64,000 nt of DNA, taken from contig NZ_CP126247.1 in NCBI RefSeq assembly GCF_030142155.1, positions 3,668,962-3,732,961 of the forward strand, in the 5' to 3' direction. This DNA is from Arthrobacter sp. zg-Y820. GTDB taxonomy: Bacteria > Actinomycetota > Actinomycetes > Actinomycetales > Micrococcaceae. The stretch's first letter is position 1. Every line of letters begins with the position of its first letter. The translations under genes were made by a program, and so were the position numbers. Below, in pieces: positions 49,969 to 63,423 of this stretch. Under the pieces are notes generated by a model, which saw only the letters and a list, made by a program, of their open reading frames with translations, was not told the origin of the DNA and did no database searches.

Positions 49969-50724
49969 TCAGTCACGCACTCCAACGGCGGCGTCGTGCA
50001 GGACGAAGGTTGCAAACCCCAGCTCGCGTCGTGCGCCGCTCAGCCAGGCGTCGCGATTCTCACGTGCAGCGGCGAATGCCTGGTCACGATCCTCGGTCGT
50101 CGAGGCCTCCCGCACGGCCCAGTCGACGAGCGACCCGGTCCAGCTGAACTGGTAGTCGTCCCACTCGGCCAACGTGCTGACGTGCCCGTACGACGGCTCG
50201 AACCCGTGCTCATGGAAGGCTCGCACCAGGCCGGCGAGGTCGGGATAGGCGTCGGCCGAAACCTCGAGCGCGGCCAGGGCAGAAGCCGACGGGGCGCCCT
50301 CCCAGATGCTGTCGCCGATCAGCGCTTGGCCACCGGGGCGCAGATGCCGCCGGACAGCGCCCAGCATGTCCTCCAGCCGGCCGAAGGCGTGGCTCGCACC
50401 GACGCACAGCACCACGTCGAAGACCCCGTCGTTCCAGGTGGCGGCATCCGTCTCGATCCAGCGCACCCGGTCGCTCAGTTTCCGCTCGTCGGCACGCCGG
50501 GCGGCAGAGGCTGGGACCATTTGGTCGATCCCTACGCCAGTGATTCCGGGGTGGGTGAGTAGCAGCTCCTGCAGCCACTCGCCCTCGCCGCACCCGAGGT
50601 CAACGGCGCGGGCGCCGTCGCTTGGGCTCAGCCAGCCGACCAGTTCGCGCAGCCGATCGGGCGCCACCGGCGCCGCGATTGGATGGCGCTGGTGGGCAAT
50701 GTCGAAGATCTCGGAGCGCTCCAT
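49969..50724 (-). CDS. Class I SAM-dependent methyltransferase
   Basis: 251 residues. Motif I is AVDLGCGEGEWLQELL near residue 40, followed by GVGIDQ and the post-I region ALIGDSIWEG. It is a free-standing Rossmann-fold methyltransferase of unknown substrate. TAGCGT lies seven bases before ATG and no ribosome site is visible, so it may be leaderless. It is the first gene of the accessory block and lies on the opposite strand to its neighbours. Confidence 0.82.
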   Translation of the reverse strand: MERSEIFDIAHQRHPIAAPVAPDRLRELVGWLSPSDGARAVDLGCGEGEWLQELLLTHPGITGVGIDQMVPASAARRADERKLSDRVRWIETDAATWNDGVFDVVLCVGASHAFGRLEDMLGAVRRHLRPGGQALIGDSIWEGAPSASALAALEVSADAYPDLAGLVRAFHEHGFEPSYGHVSTLAEWDDYQFSWTGSLVDWAVREASTTEDRDQAFAAARENRDAWLSGARRELGFATFVLHDAAVGVRD

Positions 50725-50983
50725 CGCAGCGACGCTACAGGATTCAGCCGACGCCGAGGCTGAGACACCCCGGCGTGAGGCGCGCGGTTCCGCCCTCGGC
50801 GTCGAGCTGGTCGGCGTGGGTCTGGACGGACGCCGTGGTGGCCTGCTTTTTGGGTTGTTTTGTCAACCGAGTGGTTCCCTTTCAAAGACGGGTATGTGGG
50901 TCCGGTGACACCGTCTCTGCTCGAGACCTAGGGTTTCGAGCAGCTGGAGCCTCCGGTCCAGTCTCTTGGTTCTCGGGGTTTCC
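50725..50983. other. Intergenic DNA between methyltransferase and stub gene
   Basis: About 260 bases. The methyltransferase promoter lies at its left end. The rest is mixed, with a T-rich stretch (GCTTTTTGGGTTGTTTTG) at ~50842-50865. It contains no supported gene. Compositional change here suggests a junction of foreign DNA. Confidence 0.4.
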
Positions 50984-51112
50984 ATGCTGCTATCGCCGTC
51001 GTTCCGTGCCCAAAAGGCCGGCTCCCTCGCTGCCGCCGCCATGGCCGCAGCCCTGGTCCTGGGTGTGGCCACCCCAGTCCAGGCCACCCCAGGAATCACG
51101 GTGAGTATATAG
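50984..51112 (+). pseudogene. Signal-peptide-only remnant of a secreted protein gene
   Basis: 42 residues from ATG 50984. A basic start (SFRAQKAGS) is followed by an Ala/Leu/Val core, a cleavage-like VATPVQA, and then only GITVSI before TAG. It is a complete export signal without a body, so it is likely the 5' piece of a deleted secreted protein. A gene with a good ribosome site begins 16 bases after its stop. Confidence 0.5.
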
Positions 51113-51128
51113 GCGGATAGGAGTTCCA

Positions 51129-51665
51129 ATGAGCACAAAATGGCCTTACCTGCTCTTGACCCTGATGACTTTGATTCTTCTGGCAGCTGGCATCTTTATC
51201 GGATGGAATCATTGGATAACCGTAGTGATAGTCGCGGTTCCCGTCGGCTTCATGATCTCCACGTACAGATCATCAAACCGCCAGCAAATCGCTCGGACCA
51301 ATAACTCTGAAATTAGCTCCACGGGAGCAGTATCAGAGGGGCAAGTCCGGCTCGATACTCCGATTGGCTCTGTGCCAGCGGTTGTAGAGAGTGCCGTAGC
51401 TGGAATGCGCCGGTTCAAACTACGGAGCCTCTCCGCGGACGGAGCGGAAATCAGGGTATCAATAACCTTCAAGACTTGGGGTGAAACCATCACCCTAAAG
51501 TTCGAAGATGCAGGTTCCAACATGTCCCGCATAACTGCCACCTGCCGTCCCTTAATGAAATCAACGGCGGTTGACTACGGTCAGGGCAGGCAAGACATTC
51601 GTGAACTCTTCCAGGCATGTCAAGACCAGCGGGGATTAAGCAACACATCAAGGAGCAATCCATAG
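51129..51665 (+). CDS. Hypothetical membrane-anchored protein, lower GC
   Basis: 178 residues from ATG 51129 with TAGGAG five bases upstream. Two membrane segments occupy residues ~5-45, followed by a soluble domain of ~110 residues with helix-strand-strand pattern (VPAVVESAVAGMRRFKLRSL, then ITFKTWGETITLKF). GC is clearly lower than in the rest of the window. No family recognised. Placement right after a secreted-protein stub makes an immunity-like role possible, but this is inference. Confidence 0.65.
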   Translation: MSTKWPYLLLTLMTLILLAAGIFIGWNHWITVVIVAVPVGFMISTYRSSNRQQIARTNNSEISSTGAVSEGQVRLDTPIGSVPAVVESAVAGMRRFKLRSLSADGAEIRVSITFKTWGETITLKFEDAGSNMSRITATCRPLMKSTAVDYGQGRQDIRELFQACQDQRGLSNTSRSNP

Positions 51666-51777
51666 GAGGTAGTTGCACAGCCGCCTCGGCGGCGCTCACC
51701 GGCCTCAGTGGGCGCCACTTGCTTTGGGAGAGAATTCCGACATTCATGTCCGGCAGTTCCGAATAGGCTTTGGTTCC

Positions 51778-52227
51778 ATGAGACTCGAAACTAGGGGAAA
51801 ACGCATCCTGGAGATGAGGACGCGGCGTGGCCGGGTACTGGTGTTCGTTGTTCTGCCCCTGGTACTGGGGCTGCTCACGGCGGTCACCGGCTCCCTTCAA
51901 CCTATTTTCACGTTGACCATGTTGTTTCTCATGGCACCCTTCCTTCTCCAGCACAGCGGCAGGAGGTTTGATCCGCGAACCGTTGTGCCAGCAACGGGTA
52001 CCACCCGGCAGGACCGGGTGGCGGGATGGTGGAACCGATGCCGCAGGTTCGGGTTCTACGCATCGCTTTCCGTGCTGTTGATGTGGGCTCTCGCCTTCAC
52101 CCGATCAGCACTAACCGACACCTGGGGCGGTGGTGACCTTCTGCTGGCCATCGCGCTGGTCATCCCACTCGTGGTGATCTTCCGCCGGCCGCCCCGAACT
52201 CTCTCCAGTACCGCGGAAGCGAGATGA
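51778..52227 (+). CDS. Hypothetical membrane protein, four membrane segments
   Basis: 149 residues from ATG 51778 (MRLETRGKRILEMRTRRGRV). The frame is open 35 codons further but those lack membrane or coding character. Four hydrophobic segments, basic ends, a loop with PATGTTRQDRVAGWW. TAGGCT lies eight bases before ATG, so the transcript may be leaderless. It overlaps the next gene by ATGA. Unknown function. Confidence 0.6.
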   Translation: MRLETRGKRILEMRTRRGRVLVFVVLPLVLGLLTAVTGSLQPIFTLTMLFLMAPFLLQHSGRRFDPRTVVPATGTTRQDRVAGWWNRCRRFGFYASLSVLLMWALAFTRSALTDTWGGGDLLLAIALVIPLVVIFRRPPRTLSSTAEAR

Positions 52228-52799
52228 CTGGAAGCATCCACGCAATCTCCCGTCCCAACCACGGCCAGGAGGCCGAGGACGGCAATTTCCAATTGATGTT
52301 GTCAACCGGATCGGTTGAAACGGCCTGGCTCAATGGCCGCGCCAGCAGGTCATCGAGCCGGCTCACGCTTATATTCATTTGGGTGAACCCCTCACCGCCG
52401 CATTTAGCGAAAGAAGAGTCCTCTTTGGAAATCATTTACGAATCAAAGGAGACCTTCACTCTTCTTGAACCGGTTCCAGCGGCAGTGACCGCCCTCGAGT
52501 CAAACTTGAGGAATGCGGGCTACCGACCGCAATCGCGAGGCGACTCGGTAACAGTAGCTACGGGTTCCGATTTGCTGACCAGACTTTGGGGGATGCTCCT
52601 GCCGTGGGGCCGCAAGAGCGTTCCGGTCGGCATGACTGTTTCCTTCACGTCCGGACCCATGGGCACGGTTGCGTCAGTGCACGCTTATGACAGGCTTGGC
52701 TGGTACGTCGACGCTAAAACCAACTCAGTCCTCAAAGAAGAAGTAATGCAGAGAATCGATGCCCTGATAGAAGTGGCTCGAAGATCATTGCAGCGATAA
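52224..52799 (+). CDS. Hypothetical soluble protein coupled to a membrane protein
   Basis: 191 residues if begun at ATG 52224, which overlaps the upstream stop. The first ~65 residues look poorly coding; a TTG at 52425 with AAGAAGAG five bases upstream would give a 124-residue protein (LEIIYESKETFTLLEP). The second part has helix VPAAVTALESNLRNAG, a hydrophobic turn LWGMLLPWGRKSVPVG and strands, a layout like that of the gene at 51129. Function unknown; lower GC. Confidence 0.55.
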   Translation: MTGSIHAISRPNHGQEAEDGNFQLMLSTGSVETAWLNGRASRSSSRLTLIFIWVNPSPPHLAKEESSLEIIYESKETFTLLEPVPAAVTALESNLRNAGYRPQSRGDSVTVATGSDLLTRLWGMLLPWGRKSVPVGMTVSFTSGPMGTVASVHAYDRLGWYVDAKTNSVLKEEVMQRIDALIEVARRSLQR

Positions 52800-52815
52800 G
52801 CCATCTACCGGTTGC

Positions 52816-52974
52816 TCAGGCGGCCAGCAGGCACCGGTGGGCCGGCACAGGCGGTGAGGGTGTGTAGGGCATTTCGTCGCGGAGCATGGCCCAGAGGACG
52901 TTGAAGCGGCGTCGTGCAAGACAGATGACGGCTGGGGTATGGGATTTACCTTCGGTGCGTTTGCGGTCATACCT
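52816..52974 (-). pseudogene. IS110-family transposase, 3' fragment
   Basis: The last 52 residues of a 140-codon frame (RKRTEGKSHTPAVICLARRR, then FNVLWAMLRDEMPYTP) match the C terminus of IS110-family DEDD transposases. The part upstream in the frame does not look like transposase, so the N-terminal ~350 residues are missing. It is a remnant of an insertion sequence within the accessory region. Confidence 0.65.
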
Positions 52975-53018
52975 CCTCGACCACACATAAGGACAGCAAA
53001 AGACGTCGTAGACACATC

Positions 53019-53063
53019 GGCCCGGAGTGTCCGGAACTCTGCGACAGCGCGCCCCGGGCCAAA
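53019..53063. repeat. 45-bp palindromic direct repeat, left copy
   Basis: Begins GGCCCGGAGTGTCCGGAA and ends CCCCGGGCCAAA. It agrees with the copy at 54026-54070 at 41 of 45 positions. The ends (GGCCCGGRGTG / CRCCCCGGGCC type) are inverted repeats. The two copies bracket the SDR gene in direct orientation. Confidence 0.8.
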
Positions 53064-53204
53064 AAGCTGGCCGCGTCACTGTTGCGAGCAGTTCGGCGCC
53101 GCAACCGCTGCGCTTGGGCAATCCGTCATTACGGCGTGAGAGCATGCCATGATGCCATGACGCACGCGTACAAACCGAACAGTTCAACAACAAAAGGAGT
53201 GACG

Positions 53205-54002
53205 ATGATCGACAATCAGTTGAAAGGCCGGGTGGCATTAGTGACAGGCGCCGGGGACGGGCTCGGGCAAGGAATTGCCCGCCGCTTTGCGCAAGCCGGG
53301 GCGGCTGTTCTCATCGCAGAGTTTGACGATGTTAAAGGTCAAGCCGCGGCTGATTCCATTGTCGCCAACGGCGGCCAGGCGGCCTTCGTGCATTGCGACA
53401 TCACGGAGAAATCACAGATGGATGCCGCAGTCCAAACTGCGGTTGATGAATTTGGATCCATCGACATCCTCGTCAATAACGCTTACCGCAGCTGGGGCAT
53501 CCACCGGGTGGAAAACAAAACCGACGAAGAGTACGAAGCGAACTTCGCCATGAACGTGCTCGGACCGAATTGGGCCATGAAAAAGGCTTTTCCCGTCATG
53601 AAAGCGCAGCAATGGGGACGCATTATCAACATCAGCTCCCTCAACGGGGTCAACGCCCACATGGGCACCGCGGCATACAATGCCAGCAAAGAAGCACTTC
53701 GCGCCCTCACCCGCACAGCCGCTCGAGAGTGGGCACCATACGGCATCACCGCGAACATCATGTGCCCCGCGGTGGCCTCAGCGGCCTACCGTAACTTCGC
53801 CACGCACCAACCCGATGCGGCAGCAGCTACTGATGCCGCGATACCCATGGGCCGCATGGGAGACGCAGAAGCCGACCTCGGAGGCGTGGCAGTGTTCCTT
53901 GCCAGCGAAGACTCAAGATACCTCACTGGAAATACCCTCTTCGTAGACGGCGGCAGCCACATCAACGGTTCTCCATGGGCTCCCCACCTTCCGGAGAGCT
54001 AA
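53205..54002 (+). CDS. Short-chain dehydrogenase within accessory region
   Basis: 265 residues from ATG 53205 (AAAGGAG five bases upstream). TGAGDGLGQGIARRF is the cofactor site, NNAY replaces NNAG, and the catalytic Ser in NISSLNG, Tyr and Lys in YNASK are present; GGSHINGS lies at the end. It is a complete SDR of the FabG/3-oxoacyl type; substrate unknown. It lies alone between two 45-bp palindromic repeats, 950 bases apart, and its GC is a little below that of the core genes. Confidence 0.88.
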   Translation: MIDNQLKGRVALVTGAGDGLGQGIARRFAQAGAAVLIAEFDDVKGQAAADSIVANGGQAAFVHCDITEKSQMDAAVQTAVDEFGSIDILVNNAYRSWGIHRVENKTDEEYEANFAMNVLGPNWAMKKAFPVMKAQQWGRIINISSLNGVNAHMGTAAYNASKEALRALTRTAAREWAPYGITANIMCPAVASAAYRNFATHQPDAAAATDAAIPMGRMGDAEADLGGVAVFLASEDSRYLTGNTLFVDGGSHINGSPWAPHLPES

Positions 54003-54025
54003 CCGGCTATTGGGCCGGTTCCGCG

Positions 54026-54070
54026 GGCCCGGGGTGTCCGGAGCTCTGCGACGGCGCACCCCGGGCCAAA
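54026..54070. repeat. 45-bp palindromic direct repeat, right copy
   Basis: Begins GGCCCGGGGTGTCCGGAG and ends CCCCGGGCCAAA. The ends form an eleven-base perfect inverted repeat (GGCCCGGGGTG / CACCCCGGGCC) around a 20-base loop. It lies 23 bases past the SDR stop. It differs from the left copy at four positions. Confidence 0.8.
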
Positions 54071-54165
54071 GTGCCGGCTGCGCAGGGAACGCCCGTCCCC
54101 TGGTTGGAGATCCGGCGGAAGCCCAGGAAATCCCCGACAGGCGAGCTGGGCGGGTTTCCCGAGAA

Positions 54166-54456
54166 GCGTTAGACGTCGTTTCGTGTGATCTGTTGATCCT
54201 GCGCAGCGCCTGTGCCACCGTCGTCGCGCACGTTGTTCCCGGACAACTGCTGGTACTGACCCCCACGACGCAGGTGGGCAGCACCTGGGACCTGCTGGCG
54301 CAACTGTTGGAGAGCCGCCGGCGCCCGGGTTTCGAGATCGACGTGGCGTTCCGCCCGGTGCGCTCAACCCCGGAGTGGATGACTTCAGCCAGGAGAAGGT
54401 TCCCCGCGCGGCAGTCGGCGACACCGCCGCCTGCGGCCTCCGGGCAGAGCGGCGTT
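54166..54456 (+). pseudogene. Fragment of a UDP-/GDP-sugar dehydrogenase, frameshifted
   Basis: One frame reads ATVVAHVVPGQLLVLTPTTQ, then VGSTWDLLAQLLESRR and DVAFRPVR, like the central part of nucleotide-sugar dehydrogenases (PGQLVVLxSTTYPGTT ... FSPER). Near 54376 the likeness passes to a second frame (EKVPRAAVGDTAACGLRAE, like TPKVVGGVTPA). The NAD-binding and C-terminal domains are missing and there is no start, so it is a decayed fragment. Confidence 0.5.
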
Positions 54457-54801
54457 GGCCGCAGCCGTTACGGCCCGATTCAAAATGCGGGACTGTCGGC
54501 CTACGACGTCGACAGCTATGTTTTCAGCTGACGCAGGCCTTCTGTATGAAATTCGCGTCCCGCAGCCGATTGCCGCCGCCTGAACTCTTTCGGAACGCCC
54601 GGTGACGGTTTTACAGTGAGGCATGGCTGGGACGGAACCCATCTCCCGGGACCGCTTTTCTCAGACGGTAGTCAGCGGAGGGCAAAAATTGAGGAGTCGG
54701 CAGCCCGGAGCTGCTCACGTTGCGCCTGCTACGCGGTGACAACCTGTATCAGTGCCGCAGATTCCCGCTAGCCCCCGTCTGCTACCAAGGATGTGAAAAC
54801 A
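54457..54801. other. Intergenic DNA upstream of the second methyltransferase
   Basis: About 345 bases. A few weak frames cross it but none has a ribosome site and coding character. The last 30 bases contain CCAAGGA ahead of the methyltransferase start. CCCGTCTGCTAC (54775) also occurs at 57420. Confidence 0.45.
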
Positions 54802-55638
54802 ATGACTGAAACACCAACCACCAATGATGCCGACCGAGAGCTGAAAAGCAAGCTCCGGAAGACGTGGGCGCAGGGCAACTATGCCGCCGTCGCCACTGAG
54901 GTCATCCCCACGCTCGGGGCCGTTGTTGTCCAGGCCTGCGGGGTCACAGGCCGGGACCGGGTACTGGATATAGCTGCCGGCACCGGTAACGCTGCGATTC
55001 CGGCGGCGGATGTTGGGGCCAATGTGACTGCATCGGATCTTACACCGGAGCTCCTAGACATCGGCAGGACCATCGCCGAGGCCCGTGGCAGCAACCTTGA
55101 CTGGGTGGTGGCCGACGCCGAGGCCCTGCCGTTTCCGGATGCATCATTCGATGTCGTACTGTCCTGTGTCGGCGTCATGTTCGCCCCGCATCATCAGCAG
55201 GCGGCCGATGAGCTTGTGCGGGTCTGCCGTTCGGGCGGGCGGATCGGACTGATCAACTGGACGCCGGAAGGATTCATCGGCCGCATGTTTGCCACCATGA
55301 AGCCCTATGCGCCTCCACCCCCGCCGGGCATACAGCCTCCCCCGTTGTGGGGGAAAAAAGAACATGTCGAGGCGCTCTTCGCGGGACAGGTCAGCGACCT
55401 TCGAGTCGAGCGTCGCGCACTGCGCGTTGACCGATTCCGTTCACCCGAGGAATTCCTTGCCTTCTTCAAGACCAATTACGGGCCCACCATTGCCGTCTAT
55501 CGATCTTTGGCAGCAGATCCCGGCCGTGCGGCAGAGCTCGACTCCGACCTGCTTTCCCTGGTGGGGCAGTTTAGCTCCGATCCGACAAAAACAGTCATGG
55601 ATTGGGAGTACCTCCTGCTGACCGCCAGGCGCCTCTAA
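54802..55638 (+). CDS. Class I SAM-dependent methyltransferase, UbiE/COQ5-like
   Basis: 278 residues from ATG 54802; a GTG three codons upstream sits too near the AAGGA site. Motif I is VLDIAAGTGNAAIPAADVGA, followed by ASDLTPELL and the ADAEALPFPDASFDVVLSCVG block, typical of UbiE-like C- or O-methyltransferases. A Pro-rich loop (APPPPPGIQPPPLWG) precedes the C-terminal helical part. Substrate unknown. It is the last accessory gene before the parS region. Confidence 0.87.
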   Translation: MTETPTTNDADRELKSKLRKTWAQGNYAAVATEVIPTLGAVVVQACGVTGRDRVLDIAAGTGNAAIPAADVGANVTASDLTPELLDIGRTIAEARGSNLDWVVADAEALPFPDASFDVVLSCVGVMFAPHHQQAADELVRVCRSGGRIGLINWTPEGFIGRMFATMKPYAPPPPPGIQPPPLWGKKEHVEALFAGQVSDLRVERRALRVDRFRSPEEFLAFFKTNYGPTIAVYRSLAADPGRAAELDSDLLSLVGQFSSDPTKTVMDWEYLLLTARRL

Positions 55639-55716
55639 GGCAGCCGCAGAACTGCCATCCGCAACGGCCCGCCAGCGCCCGCAAAACGACCAAGAAGACT
55701 GGCGGGGTGGCACCGC

Positions 55717-55730
55717 GTTTCACGTGAAAC
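55717..55730. promoter_or_regulatory. parS site 1
   Basis: Perfect 14-bp core GTTTCACGTGAAAC; flanks C...A. First of three sites within 138 bases. Confidence 0.93.
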
Positions 55731-55789
55731 ACCCACTGCTGGTCAGAGACACCTATGAGCCGCCTACCGATCCAGGTGCCCGCTGACTT

Positions 55790-55803
55790 GTTTCACGTGA
55801 AAC
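55790..55803. promoter_or_regulatory. parS site 2
   Basis: Perfect 14-bp core; flanks T...G. 73 bases from site 1. Confidence 0.93.
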
Positions 55804-55840
55804 GGCCACCCACGGACGGGCAGGCCAGCCAGTTTGTTCT

Positions 55841-55854
55841 GTTTCACGTGAAAC
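55841..55854. promoter_or_regulatory. parS site 3
   Basis: Perfect 16-bp palindrome TGTTTCACGTGAAACA including flanks. 51 bases from site 2. Confidence 0.95.
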
Positions 55855-56328
55855 AGACTCGGCTGTACCCCGCGGCCCGGGCTGACGATCACGGGATTCC
55901 GTCTTGTGCCCGATACACGGCTGGTCCATCATGAACCGCGCCAGAAGACAGACGTTGCGTCTTCCTACAAAGCCTTTTGTCGCCGGGGAAGGATAATAGG
56001 CTTTGAATCGCGGAGCGGCCTTCAAACGCCAAGAATATTGGGTGTGAATGCTCTGCGCAGACAGGTCGTGAACCGCCCAACATCTGACCACATCCCTCTG
56101 CTGGGGACGTAAACATTTGCCAATGAAATGCGTGCGGCAAACTGCACCAGCTTCCGAAACTTTCAGGTGCACCGCAACGCGATGGTGCCCTCCGCTGCCG
56201 TGCTGGATAAGCCGTGTGCCGCTCCGGGGCGTGGCACCTCTAATCGAGACACTGCAAATCCAGATGCTCCCCGCCGGCCATGACACCGCCGTCCCGGACC
56301 TACCTACCAGAGGCTCAGTGACCCCATC

Positions 56329-56342
56329 GTTTCACGTGAAAC
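56329..56342. promoter_or_regulatory. parS site 4
   Basis: Perfect 14-bp core; flanks C...C. Confidence 0.93.
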
Positions 56343-56687
56343 CCGCCGGTGGCATACTTTCCCCGGCCTACCACTGGACACTCCACTGTGGCACAGAAAG
56401 GCAGGGCAACACGTGATTTTCCGCCAGCAGACCCGAGGCCCGAAGGTGTCACAAAGGCCAACAGGGAGGGCGCGTCAGCTACCCCACCCAACGCCTGGCG
56501 CACCCCAGGAGAACCTGATCCCTCGCCGCGGACCCATCCAACGACGCCGATACGAACAATGAAGAGCCCCACCAAAGGCACCCCACAACCAGGCCGCGCA
56601 GAAAAATTTTTTAGAATTCGCGAGCCGTGCCGTGATTCAACACCAGGGCACGGATCCGAGGGGCGTTGTTAGGTGTCCGGAGGCGGT

Positions 56688-56701
56688 GTTTCACGTGAAA
56701 C
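56688..56701. promoter_or_regulatory. parS site 5
   Basis: Perfect 14-bp core; flanks T...C. Confidence 0.93.
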
Positions 56702-56956
56702 CCTGCACGAGAGGGTCCCGTTTCCCAGCAAACACGGGTACTCATTGCCCGACGAAGTCCCTAAACCCTCTGCTGCCGGCCTGTGTGCCAGTGAATTTCC
56801 CCGTGGGCTGCCCTGGATACCTCTTGATACCTCAGCCGGCAGGGAGATGCTGCCGGGGGGCACCGGCGCAGTGCCCCCGCTCTCGGACCAGGCGAGCGTT
56901 CACCGGCCGACGTGGCGACACCACGGAGGTAATCAGCCGAACCCGAACCAGGAAGG

Positions 56957-56970
56957 GTTTCACGTGAAAC
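56957..56970. promoter_or_regulatory. parS site 6
   Basis: Perfect 14-bp core; flanks G...G. Confidence 0.93.
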
Positions 56971-57255
56971 GGAAAGCCCGTTGCGCGGTTTAGGTTGCAC
57001 GGTTTGGCTTCAAGCACCCGGCGGTAGTATCAGCAGCAGGTCCCCGTCGCGGTAACTGCGTTAGCCTTCATTCCAGAATCCGAGTGGGGTTTCCCCTTCT
57101 GATGTTGGACCTACGACTGCAACCCACAACACCGGGTTTCGTATTCAGACAATGGGATCTCCGAGTCGGAGTCACACAGGCGGCGCCGGAGTGATCCGTT
57201 CAGCGGGCAGTTTCCGCTCGACGACTCAAGCGGGGTGGGGGTGACTCTAACCGGC

Positions 57256-57269
57256 GTTTCACGTGAAAC
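57256..57269. promoter_or_regulatory. parS site 7
   Basis: Perfect 14-bp core; flanks C...G. Confidence 0.93.
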
Positions 57270-57512
57270 GCTTCTGAGTCCGGCATGTCCGGGAGTGGTT
57301 CGGCTAAATCGCTACAAGTGCGGGGCCGTTTGTAGCGTTCGGCCCCGGATCCACGCGCCCACGGGGGAACAGGTGCGCCCCGGTGCTATACGGATGACTG
57401 GCCTTAACGCCCGCCAATCCCCGTCTGCTACGCCACCTGAGGCTACTGCGTGGTGGGTTCGACGTCGGTCCAACTGCTCTTATGCCGGCATCAAAAAGGC
57501 CGTCCGGGCGGT

Positions 57513-57526
57513 GTTTCACGTGAAAC
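57513..57526. promoter_or_regulatory. parS site 8
   Basis: Perfect 16-bp palindrome including flanks T...A. Last site before the parB stop codon. Confidence 0.95.
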
Positions 57527-57617
57527 AAAGCCCGAACGACCGGAACCCAACTGCTCCCAGGACCGGACAACGGTACCCGCGACAGGGGTACACCGCCGGG
57601 GTGCCGCCCGGGGAGGG

Positions 57618-58961
57618 TCAGTTGGAGGGCGGCGCCAGCACTCCCATGATGCGATTCAGGTCATCAACACTGGCAAATTCAATGCTGACCTTTCCCTTGC
57701 GGGCACCCAGGGTGATTTTCACGTTGGTATCCAAGCGATCCGACAACGACGTCGCCAGGTAATCCAAACGCTCGTGCCGCGCCCCCACCTTGGGCTTGCT
57801 TTCCTTGGCCGGACGGCGCAAGCCGTCACTCATAGACACGATTTCCTCCGTCGCTCGGACGGACAACCCCTCAGCGACGATTCGCTGCGCCAGCTTCTCC
57901 ATCTCGGCGGCATCCGCGAGGCCGAGCAGTGCACGTGAATGTCCTGCCGACAGAATCCCGGCCGCGAGCCTGCGCTGCACCAGCGGAGGCAGTTTCATCA
58001 ACCGCAAAGTGTTGGTTACCTGGGGGCGAGACCTGCCGATGCGGTCCGCCAACTCTTCATGGGAGCAGCCGAAGTCGTCCAGAAGCTGCTGGTATGCAGC
58101 CGCCTCTTCCAAGGGATTGAGCTGGCTGCGGTGCAGGTTCTCGAGCAGGGCGTCACGCAGCAGATCAACATCCTGCGTGAACCGGATGATTGCGGGGACA
58201 GCCTGGAGTCCGGCTTCGCGGCTTGCCCGCCAGCGCCGCTCACCCATGACAAGCTCATAGGGATGTTCGGGGTCGTCTTCCGGGGACGGGCGGACAACAA
58301 TCGGCTGAAGGACACCGATCTCCCGAATGGAATGCACCAGTTCGGCCATGTCATCTTCATCGAAGACCGACCGGGGCTGTTTCCGGTTCGGGTGGATGGA
58401 GTCCACCGGGATCTCGGCGAAGGACGCCCCCGGCACCTCCACGAGCGTTTCACGTGAAACAGCGGCACCGTTGTCGGCTTCTGCTGCCGCGTCAGGGCCG
58501 TTTTCGGCGGGTTCCCCCGTGCTGGCCGCGCCTGTCGCTGAAGCCGCCCTGGAGGCCGTCTGGCCCCGTTTGGGGCGGGCCTTTGCCGGCTGTGACGGAC
58601 CAGTGCCGCGGTCAGCGGCACCGTCCGTGGAAGGCTCTTCGGAACCGACGGCTGATGCCGGTTCCCCAAGCCCCTCATCGAGACCCGGAACTGACATCTG
58701 CTGGCTCCGGGGTGAACCCGTGCCTGCCGCTTTCTGTCCGGAACCTCGCAGTGCATCCATGTTGATCCCCGGTCCTCGACGGGCACCTCCGGGAGCCGGA
58801 CGGGTCGGTGTCACGCTGTCACCGGCGGCCGGGAAAAACACATCAACGGGTCGGCCGGCGCGAGCGGGGGCCGAGGCAGCCACTGAGGCTTCCTCTGATT
58901 CTGCGCTGCTGGGAATCAATGCCCCCAGGCCTCGTCCCAAACCACGACGCTTTTCGGTCAT
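57618..58961 (-). CDS. parB: Chromosome partitioning protein ParB (parS-binding CTPase)
   Basis: 447 residues. Residues ~1-170 are a low-complexity Ala/Gly/Pro linker with ...[14 protein letters not shown] at the start, the ParA-contact motif. The core begins [20 protein letters not shown] and holds GERRWRAS (CTP/switch motif) and an HTH in [22 protein letters not shown]. The C-terminal part (~ 395-447) is the dimer domain. It binds the parS sites listed and spreads as a CTP clamp. One parS lies inside its own coding sequence. parA lies 102 bases upstream on the same strand. Confidence 0.97.
58447..58460. promoter_or_regulatory. parS site 9, inside parB coding sequence
   Basis: Perfect 14-bp core; read on the minus strand it codes Val-Ser-Arg-Glu-Thr in the linker ([11 protein letters not shown]) upstream of the ParB core. 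Confidence 0.95.
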
Positions 58962-59063
58962 GGGTATGTCCTTCCCTTATGCACACAGCAAGCGGCATGG
59001 ATTGATTGTGACTGTATTCTACGATTCAGGATGTCATTTACTGCGCAGGGCACGGCGGGATGT

Positions 59064-60362
59064 CTAGCCGCGCTGGGCAATCTCCGAGGCAGCTTCCAGA
59101 TAGGACAGGGCGCCAGTGGAGGACGGATCATAGGTCATGACCGTCTGCTGATAGCTCGGAGCTTCCGAAATTCGCACGGACCGCGGCACAACGGCTCCAA
59201 GCACCTGGTCGGGGAAGTGCTCCCTGACTTCGGCGGCAACCTGAGCCGCCAGATTCGTCCGGCCGTCGTACATGGTGAGGAGAATCGTCGAAACAACCAG
59301 GTCGGCGTTGAGATGCTTTTGGATCATCTCAATGTTCTTCAACAGCTGGCTCAGGCCCTCCAACGCATAGTATTCGCACTGGATCGGAATGAGGACTTCC
59401 CGGGCAGCAACGAAGGCGTTGACGGTCAGCAGCCCCAGGCTCGGCGGGCAGTCGATAAAGATGTAGTCGAGACGTTCCTCGCCGGTGCGTTCCCGTTCCA
59501 GAGCGTAAACATCAATGGCCCGGCGCAGCCGCTGTTCCCGGGCGACCAGGGATACCAGCTCGATTTCCGCTCCCGCCAAATGAATGGTCGCGGGCGCGCA
59601 AATAAGGTTGTCAATGTCCGGGCACGGAGCCACGACGTTAGCCAGCGGCAGGTCGTCAATGAGGACATCGTAAATGCTCTCGACTTCGGCACGGTGGTCG
59701 ATGCCCAGTGCCGTGGAGGCGTTGCCCTGAGGGTCAATGTCGATGACCAGCACGTTCAGCCCGGCACTGGCGAGGGCAGCGGCCAGATTGACGGTCGTGG
59801 TCGTTTTGCCGACGCCGCCTTTCTGGTTGCTCACGGTCATGATCCGGGTCTCGACCGGACGCGGGAGAACCCGGCCGCGGAGCTTTTCCCGACGGCGGCT
59901 TTCATGCGCGAGTTCCCTGGCCAGCGGGGTGCTTTCGTCCATTAGGTCCATAACGTCCACCGACGTCGACGGTACGACCGCCTCGTCAGCTACACCACCT
60001 TCGATAGCCTCGGGGGCCGCTGCAGATTCAGCCGCGGTTTGCAGGGTGACAACGCTGTGCGCTGTTTCACGTGAAACAAGGTCCATGGAAGCGGCAGGGT
60101 CAGCGGCAGCCGGTGCGGGAGAAACCGGCGCCTCCACGGGGTCGGGGGCAACGGCAGCCGAGGCTGCGAGCTCAACCGGCTGCTCCGCTGACTGCGGAGC
60201 CGGCTCACGCTCAACGGCGGGCGGCTCCTGATTGTTCACAAACGTTTGGGGTTGAATTCTAGAGAACTGTGCGGAGAGGGCAGAACCCAACGCTGCAAAG
60301 GGTGGAATCCGTTTTGCGGCGGAATCACGGCGCGCACTCACCTGGACAGGCTCACTTTCCAA
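59064..60362 (-). CDS. parA: Chromosome partitioning ATPase ParA
   Basis: 432 residues. The ATPase core starts near residue 170 with TVSNQKGGVGKTTTTVNLAA (deviant Walker A with the first Lys), DIDPQGNASTALG, and FIDCPPSLGLLTVNA. About 165 extra N-terminal residues are acidic, Pro/Ala-rich and likely disordered, longer than in most Soj/ParA proteins. It binds nucleoid DNA as an ATP dimer and moves ParB-parS complexes. A parS site lies inside its linker. No SD-based alternative start could be fixed. Confidence 0.96.
   Translation of the reverse strand: MESEPVQVSARRDSAAKRIPPFAALGSALSAQFSRIQPQTFVNNQEPPAVEREPAPQSAEQPVELAASAAVAPDPVEAPVSPAPAAADPAASMDLVSRETAHSVVTLQTAAESAAAPEAIEGGVADEAVVPSTSVDVMDLMDESTPLARELAHESRRREKLRGRVLPRPVETRIMTVSNQKGGVGKTTTTVNLAAALASAGLNVLVIDIDPQGNASTALGIDHRAEVESIYDVLIDDLPLANVVAPCPDIDNLICAPATIHLAGAEIELVSLVAREQRLRRAIDVYALERERTGEERLDYIFIDCPPSLGLLTVNAFVAAREVLIPIQCEYYALEGLSQLLKNIEMIQKHLNADLVVSTILLTMYDGRTNLAAQVAAEVREHFPDQVLGAVVPRSVRISEAPSYQQTVMTYDPSSTGALSYLEAASEIAQRG
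60064..60077. promoter_or_regulatory. parS site 10, inside parA coding sequence
   Basis: Perfect 16-bp palindrome including flanks; read on the minus strand it codes Val-Ser-Arg-Glu-Thr (MDLVSRETAHSVV) in the disordered N-terminal part of ParA. Confidence 0.95.
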
Positions 60363-60449: not shown

Positions 60450-61082
60450 CTACCCCACGCGGATGCGGACAACCGTCGTGTGTTCCTCGAGGAGGTCTTC
60501 TCCGGCGGTCAGAATTGAAGTCTCGCGGCCTCCGAGCTTGCGGATGACCTTCGATGCCTTCTGAATCTCCTCTTCAGCGCTGCGCCCCTTGATCGCCAGC
60601 ACCACTCCCTTGCCCTTCAGGAGGGGGATCGTCAGGCCGGCCAGGGACCCCAGGGCGGAAACGGCGCGCGCCGTCACGACATCCGCCTCGACCTCGTCGA
60701 TCACCTGCTCCGCACGGCCCCGAATAACCGTGACGTTCTCCAGGCCAAGATCCGCCACGACCTCGTTAAGCCAGATCACTCGGCGTTCCAAGGGTTCAAT
60801 CAAGGTCAGCTGCAGATCAGGGCGGGCGATGGCCAGGCACAGGCCCGGCAATCCGGCGCCACTTCCGACGTCGGCCACTCGGGCGTTTTCATCGATCAGG
60901 TCAGCGACCACGGCACAGTTCAGCACATGCCGGCTCCACAAACGGGGAACCTCGCGGGGCCCCAGCAGCCCGCGTTCCATGCCCGATGTGGCCAGATGCT
61001 CGACATAGCGCTCAGCCAGTTCCAGCCGGGTGCCAAAGATTTTTTCCGCCGCCGTGCGCTCTGCGGGCGTTGTTTCAACCAC
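60450..61082 (-). CDS. rsmG: 16S rRNA (guanine-N7) methyltransferase RsmG
   Basis: 210 residues. Motif I VADVGSGAGLPGLCLAIARPDLQLTLIEPLERR and downstream NVTVIRGRAEQV are RsmG (GidB) features. It makes m7G at position 527 of 16S rRNA (E. coli numbering). It sits in the conserved order jag-rsmG-parA. GTG/ATG start uncertain by a few codons. Confidence 0.95.
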   Translation of the reverse strand: MVETTPAERTAAEKIFGTRLELAERYVEHLATSGMERGLLGPREVPRLWSRHVLNCAVVADLIDENARVADVGSGAGLPGLCLAIARPDLQLTLIEPLERRVIWLNEVVADLGLENVTVIRGRAEQVIDEVEADVVTARAVSALGSLAGLTIPLLKGKGVVLAIKGRSAEEEIQKASKVIRKLGGRETSILTAGEDLLEEHTTVVRIRVG

Positions 61083-63054: not shown

Positions 63055-63423
63055 TCACCCCTTCTGGCATAGCGAGCGGGCGCGGTCGAGTTTCCCGGCG
63101 CACGTACGCAGCGCGCCCAGATAGTCTGTGCGAAGCTCCTGCCAAGACGCCGTTGCCGCCGGCGGCAACGCACGGACGACAATATCGAACCCGGTGGGGT
63201 ACTCACGCAGACTCTGGGCAGCTGCTTCTCTCAGTCTTCTCTTAACGAGGTTCCGTGTCACGGCGTTCCCGACGCTTTTCGCGACGATGAAGCCTACGCG
63301 GGTAGGGCTTGCCCCTGTGTCCACCGCATATAACACGACGTTCCGGCGCCCACTGCGGGCACCGGAACGTACAGTAAAAGAAAAATCCGCCGATGTCCGC
63401 ACCCGATTCCCTACGGCCAGCAT
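63055..63423 (-). CDS. rnpA: Ribonuclease P protein component
   Basis: 122 residues. The family motif [12 protein letters not shown] with basic residues lies in the middle, and [16 protein letters not shown] precedes it. It supports the RNase P RNA in 5' tRNA processing. 62 bases downstream of rpmH, standard order rpmH-rnpA-yidD-yidC. Confidence 0.97.

Follow-up and report, generated by a model that had tools for sequence, protein, structure and literature searches.

A compact cluster of ten predicted parS sites around parAB near the likely replication origin of Arthrobacter sp. zg-Y820

What are ten identical 14-bp palindromes doing in and around a single pair of partition genes? The question is raised by a stretch of 64,000 nucleotides from Arthrobacter sp. 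zg-Y820 (contig NZ_CP126247.1, positions 3,668,962 to 3,732,961; hereafter the window), in which ten exact copies of GTTTCACGTGAAAC are packed into a 4.4-kb block, 55717-60077, around parA and parB. An earlier note on this DNA had located the ten copies, and all of them were found again where it had placed them. We propose that they are the predicted parS sites of the surrounding ParAB system, which together form one compact chromosomal centromere near the likely oriC. As judged from sequence comparison, this reading is very probably correct.

The ten sites are assigned no strand. Eight lie downstream of parB, at 55717-55730, 55790-55803, 55841-55854, 56329-56342, 56688-56701, 56957-56970, 57256-57269 and 57513-57526, the last of them 91 bp beyond the parB stop codon. 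One lies within parB (58447-58460) and one within the part of parA that encodes its N-terminal linker (60064-60077), and both read VSRET in frame. The flanking letters bear out the earlier observation that the copies at 55841, 57513 and 60064 sit in perfect 16-mers, as only these have a T before and an A after the 14-mer. Among the 230 sites of the genus set described below, T precedes the 14-mer in 140 and A follows it in 103, so the outer pair of the 16-mer is a preference only.

No further match to GTTTCACGTGAAAC with one or two mismatches was found in the window. Matches with up to two mismatches averaged 0.16 in 100 dinucleotide shuffles of the window, with a maximum of 2, in agreement with the earlier claim that a 14-bp palindrome of this kind is not expected by chance in 64 kb. 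In the whole genome (3.79 Mb in two contigs), the exact 14-mer occurs ten times, every time inside the 4.4-kb block, where 0.003 copies would be expected from the base composition of the window, and a whole-genome search for one-mismatch copies returned none. With up to three mismatches there were 51 matches (ten exact, none at one mismatch, five at two and the rest at three; places were listed for 50 of them), compared with 78 for the reversed control pattern. Since the count falls below that of the control, there is no shoulder of degenerate sites, and the possibility that the array is continued by hidden degenerate copies was rejected on these numbers. The distribution of sites is all or nothing: ten perfect copies in a single place. 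That exact copies are absent elsewhere is the chance expectation (about 0.003 per genome) and is no evidence of selection against stray sites. The earlier note had suggested that a genome-wide count could reveal a point-like centromere, and this geometry holds, because the palindromes are of the canonical parS type and all exact genomic copies are here. A scattered arrangement, as in Streptomyces or Bacillus subtilis, is not what is seen, as no copy with one mismatch or fewer lies outside the block.

The features expected of a ParABS centromere are found together at this locus, namely a consensus palindrome, a ParB protein with its set of three domains, an adjacent parA coding for a Walker ATPase, and a position near oriC. 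The parB gene (57618-58961, minus strand) codes for a protein of 447 residues that belongs to the ParB/Spo0J family by matches in Pfam, in NCBIfam and among solved structures. Its ParB_N, HTH_ParB and ParB_C domains are all above the Pfam cut-off, the NCBIfam model TIGR00180 is above its cut-off and the Noc model TIGR04285 under its own, and the protein matches solved ParB, Spo0J and Noc chains, the best being 7bnk. Directly upstream is parA (59064-60362, minus strand; start codon uncertain), whose product, a Walker ATPase, carries a linker of about 170 residues at its N terminus and matches Pfam AAA_31 (E 1.5e-55) and CbiA. Together with rsmG (60450-61082, minus strand), the order of genes on the minus strand is rsmG, parA, parB. 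A gene for ScpA is also present in the genome. The end of the window is also that of the chromosome record, just past rnpA (63055-63423), and the record starts with dnaA, followed by dnaN; five DnaA-type boxes lie within about 180 bp between the latter two. From this gene order we infer that the record is circular, in which case some 5.5-9.9 kb would separate the array from the likely oriC, with all ten sites on the same side.

How ordinary is such an array? We compared 29 genomes of the genus, the window's own and 28 relatives, with the caution that draft assemblies may lose copies. Each of the 29 carries 5-11 exact copies, and all 230 copies fall within the fetched parAB loci, in blocks that span 2.5-7.8 kb (median 5.4 kb); the 4.4 kb of the window is the ninth shortest of the 29. 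Relatives of parA were found in 28 of the 28 other loci. In crowding, the window has eight sites within 2 kb, second to one relative (G017) with nine, and the other 27 genomes have 4-6. A second set consisted of named relatives, for which 80 loci were kept of the 170 found, overlapping with the genus set. Copies were counted genome-wide for 50 of the 80, the shortest contigs being among the 30 left out. The fetched locus, about 21 kb long or shorter, accounts for all copies in 46 of these 50 and for 412 of the 420 copies overall. The exceptions are two loci with one extra copy each (L025 and L050), one whose eight copies all lie on one contig within about 15 kb (L051), and the chromosome of Arthrobacter sp. 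NtRootA1 (L075, G453:C1:4729684), which has one exact parS about 539 kb from its main cluster of nine. The earlier note had considered the density in the window unusual, while allowing that the same array might prove ordinary for the genus. It is the latter that we find: the same kind of array is present at parAB in every genome of the genus set and is compact in nearly all of the named relatives that were counted.

Beyond the genus, the surveys gave counts for all genomes and places for some. The 14-mer is present in 144 of 149 genomes of the family, representing 32 of 32 genera, and in 46 of 59 genomes at the level of the order, 45 of 60 of the class and 92 of 139 of the phylum. At 12 loci of seven other Micrococcales families, chosen among the places shown in the survey listings, the fetched stretch contains all 63 genomic copies, none more than about 7 kb from parA, and it varies with the lineage whether the sites precede parA, follow parB or do both. 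When 20 loci were searched by tblastn, parA was found in 20 and parB in 19. G191 (9.2 Mb, probably a Streptomyces) is different, with 22 copies spread over 327 kb, of which a 19-kb stretch around parAB holds five. The statement of the earlier note that parS sites of actinobacteria are spread over tens to hundreds of kb is therefore true in part: it stands for G191 and for Corynebacterium glutamicum (35 kb; PMC7083940), but not for mycobacteria (PMC2346475) or for the 12 loci of other Micrococcales families. As side observations, five genomes of the family have no exact 14-mer (G112, G143, G160, G161 and G169; the middle three are listed as 99% complete), and either a variant parS or missing sequence would account for this. 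Furthermore, G222, which is in the same phylum (family f23) and outside the class, has 14 exact copies, against 0-4 in the remaining genomes that the phylum sample includes from outside the class.

The sites are better conserved than the DNA that carries them. The 2 kb downstream of parB could not be matched by blastn (E 1e-5) to the corresponding stretch in any of the 28 other members of the genus, all of which nevertheless carry three or more exact sites in it. In the first 2 kb past parB of four close species pairs, 319 of 322 site columns are identical, compared with 6571 of 7360 flank columns, and 20 of 23 aligned 14-mers are identical, compared with 2142 of 6303 background windows of 14 bases (34%); one further site, in G028, falls in a gap of G027 and is outside the 23. 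The p value of 7e-12 for this difference should be taken as a guide only, as alignment columns are not independent. The pair G012-G013 was excluded because its flank identity is 65% and its alignment is probably anchored on the sites; when it and longer stretches are included, identity is 501 of 504 columns for sites and 17325 of 19508 for flanks. It is possible, and we suggest it tentatively as an idea that may well not hold, that the centromere is defined by the number and crowding of its sites and not by its sequence. The DNA between sites would then be replaced between species and individual sites would be born and lost, with selection keeping some 5-11 exact loaders no more than a few kb from parAB, which would give ParB and Smc a single point of loading.

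The two sites inside genes are kept in frame, nearly always as VSRET, within diverging linkers. The parA-internal site is exact in 27 of the 29 genus genomes and has one mismatch in two, and it reads VSRET in 26 and VPRET in two. Among the 80 named loci, 75 have an exact site reading VSRET in frame, three have a one-mismatch site that reads VPRET (two loci) or VSREM (one locus), and the remaining two lack the site. Under local codon use, the probability that VSRET would be written in the codons of parS is roughly 0.002, an estimate that pools open frames of at least 200 codons on the parAB strand, possibly including non-genes in this GC-rich DNA. This low probability suggests that the constraint at the parA site is mainly on the DNA. 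The parB-internal site, which precedes the ParB_N domain, is exact in 17 of the 29 genomes and has one mismatch in the other 12, reads VSRET in all 29, and is found in just nine of the 80 named loci. In-frame VSRET sites also occur in the N-terminal part of the parA frame in G191, G206, G242, G253, G281 and G329. Together with a parS reported within parA of Mycobacterium bovis BCG, these show that the position inside parA is old or recurrent. In G199 and G270, a site lies in the N-terminal part of parA in another phase. Two side observations concern parA itself. Its product has a long N-terminal extension of 170 residues, mostly diverging, in which islands around RDSAAKRIPPFAALGSA and DVMDLMDESTPLARELA are conserved across most of the genus, and at one locus (L104, in G022) the frame is broken upstream of the Walker motif in the assembly, with the parS there exact, owing to an assembly error or a different start.

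Two of these comparisons weigh against taking the palindromes purely as parts of one compact centromere. About one site with at most one mismatch per genome of the genus set (29 of 295 in total) lies outside the fetched parAB loci, although the window's genome has none. Moreover, as the parB-internal site retains VSRET in the 12 genomes where it has one mismatch, part of its conservation could be on the peptide. Seven of the 29 off-locus sites, all with one mismatch, were inspected. Four (L112-L115) represent one homologous place within open frames, L116 and L118 are homologous and also lie within open frames, and at L117 no open frame of 200 codons was seen. The suggestion that such sites are distant parts of the centromere is not supported by the seven inspected. 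At L112-L115, the parS-like site is conserved in a homologous frame other than parAB and reads VSRET there, which is probably a coding coincidence.

Could the array serve another purpose? ParB loaded in or just past its own operon might repress it, and the sites would then mainly regulate parAB, with segregation as a by-product. One site is inside parA and another inside parB, 38 of the 80 named loci have their first downstream site 15-35 bp after the parB stop codon, and a parS in the parA coding region of M. bovis BCG has been proposed to affect parA expression (PMC2346475), all of which would fit regulation. However, eight of the ten sites follow parB, at a distance from where the operon starts, and in other families of the order the side on which sites lie varies, with nearness to the locus as the constant. 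We therefore consider it very unlikely that regulation is the main role. Nor do we find it credible, beyond a slight chance, that the array arose by recent tandem duplication and that the number of sites has no function. Such an origin would be compatible with the finding that one parS suffices in C. glutamicum (PMC7083940) and with the variation of 5-11 exact sites in the genus, but sites change far less than flanks, and the stretch past parB holds exact sites in every relative in spite of the lack of a blastn match. The 10-bp flanks of the ten sites are also unlike one another (no dedicated repeat search was run), which speaks against recent duplication. Finally, a palindrome with a CACGTG core might be the target of a DNA-binding protein other than ParB. 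We regard this as extremely improbable, as the 14-mer makes up the core of the 16-bp sites reported as parS in B. subtilis and mycobacteria (PMC2346475), is named as the parS of the chromosome in Embleya, a member of the Streptomycetaceae (PMC13152386), and has all its exact copies at parAB in 29 of 29 genus genomes.

If the ten palindromes form a compact centromere, how might it work? By analogy with the family, ParB would load as a clamp dependent on cytidine triphosphate (CTP) at each 14-mer, slide outwards and bridge DNA, and ten loaders within 4.4 kb would give rise to one dense ParB complex. This complex could be pulled by ParA so that sister origins separate, and Smc-ScpAB could be loaded from what is effectively a single point. 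ParB loading, sliding and bridging and the recruitment of Smc are known in other species (PMC10387095, PMC12511625, PMC7083940, PMC8357415). For annotation, blocks of this kind are probably better described as centromeres than as regulatory islands.

The DNA next to parB was also considered as a possible gene or RNA. The stretch between a methyltransferase gene and parB (55639-57617, no strand), in which eight of the ten sites lie, is taken as non-coding and has no Rfam match at the gathering score. For an open reading frame at 55753-56286, neither a Pfam match nor a relative in the 28 genus loci or the 80 named loci was found. Another at 57235-57762 has matches in 28 of 28 genus loci and 76 of 80 named loci, the highest-identity one being 46 residues long; as this frame overlaps parB on the other strand, we read it as antisense to the conserved end of parB. 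A hidden RNA or gene in this stretch of about 2 kb was rejected, as there is neither an Rfam match nor a conserved frame of its own. Further left, 49969-55638 holds two methyltransferases, a short-chain dehydrogenase and small open reading frames. No relative of these genes was seen in the flanks fetched for the 80 named loci, and the 28 genus loci gave just three matches, all to the methyltransferase at 54793, the highest-identity one being 61 residues long. The outer edge of the array thus looks like a variable junction.

How does the array compare with known systems? In the literature searched, with subscription papers outside its scope, we found no description of chromosomal parS arrays in the Arthrobacter group. 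Among papers on this group examined for parS and ParB, PMC10495460 deals with ParB protein levels only, PMC6305408 with plasmid parS only and PMC10494377 with plasmid ParB only, and PMC13274415 has neither parS nor ParB as a whole word. The nearest likeness is to Myxococcus xanthus, where many parS form one compact block near parAB and the origin. There, 22 putative sites lie within 3 kb, about 4 kb upstream of parA, and the chromatin immunoprecipitation sequencing (ChIP-seq) profile of ParB reportedly consists for the most part of one peak, located on the cluster (PMC3899335, PMC3778016, PMC10387095). That cluster is denser than ours (PMC3899335). It also differs in its place upstream of parA, in its consensus TGTTCCACGTGGAACG, in that its repeats were found with variable positions, and in having one site far away, whereas in the window most of the array follows parB and all sites are exact 14-mers.

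Among actinobacteria, C. glutamicum likewise has ten sites on one side of oriC, which correspond to the 16-bp consensus, and its ParB loads SMC (PMC7083940). Its sites are spread over 35 kb and located 73 kb from oriC, with three ParB nucleation zones, compared with 4.4 kb and about 5.5-9.9 kb from the likely oriC here, and a single parS is sufficient for wild-type-like growth (PMC7083940). M. bovis BCG resembles the window in having a parS within parA and in the confinement of sites to the parAB neighbourhood, but mycobacteria have two parS, within about 2 kb of parB, and no downstream array (PMC2346475). Streptomyces shares parS near the origin, and G191 has the same 14-mer and an in-frame parA site; it differs in number and spread, with 16 (S. 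venezuelae) to 24 (S. coelicolor) published sites (PMC2346475, PMC12511625) and the 327-kb range of G191.

Compact arrays with many sites are a natural contrast to scattered ones. An argument made for B. subtilis is that collisions between Smc complexes are more easily avoided when strong parS sites are clustered (PMC8357415). As Arthrobacter and its relatives offer many arrays that differ in number and spacing and are served by the same ParB family, they are suited to testing the effects of parS number and crowding on the ParB complex. In most bacteria, parS sites are clustered within 5-40 kb, and scattering is restricted to a few lineages (PMC8357415). Compact parS clusters are thus the common arrangement, and the array of the window is an ordinary, rather dense case of a known kind.

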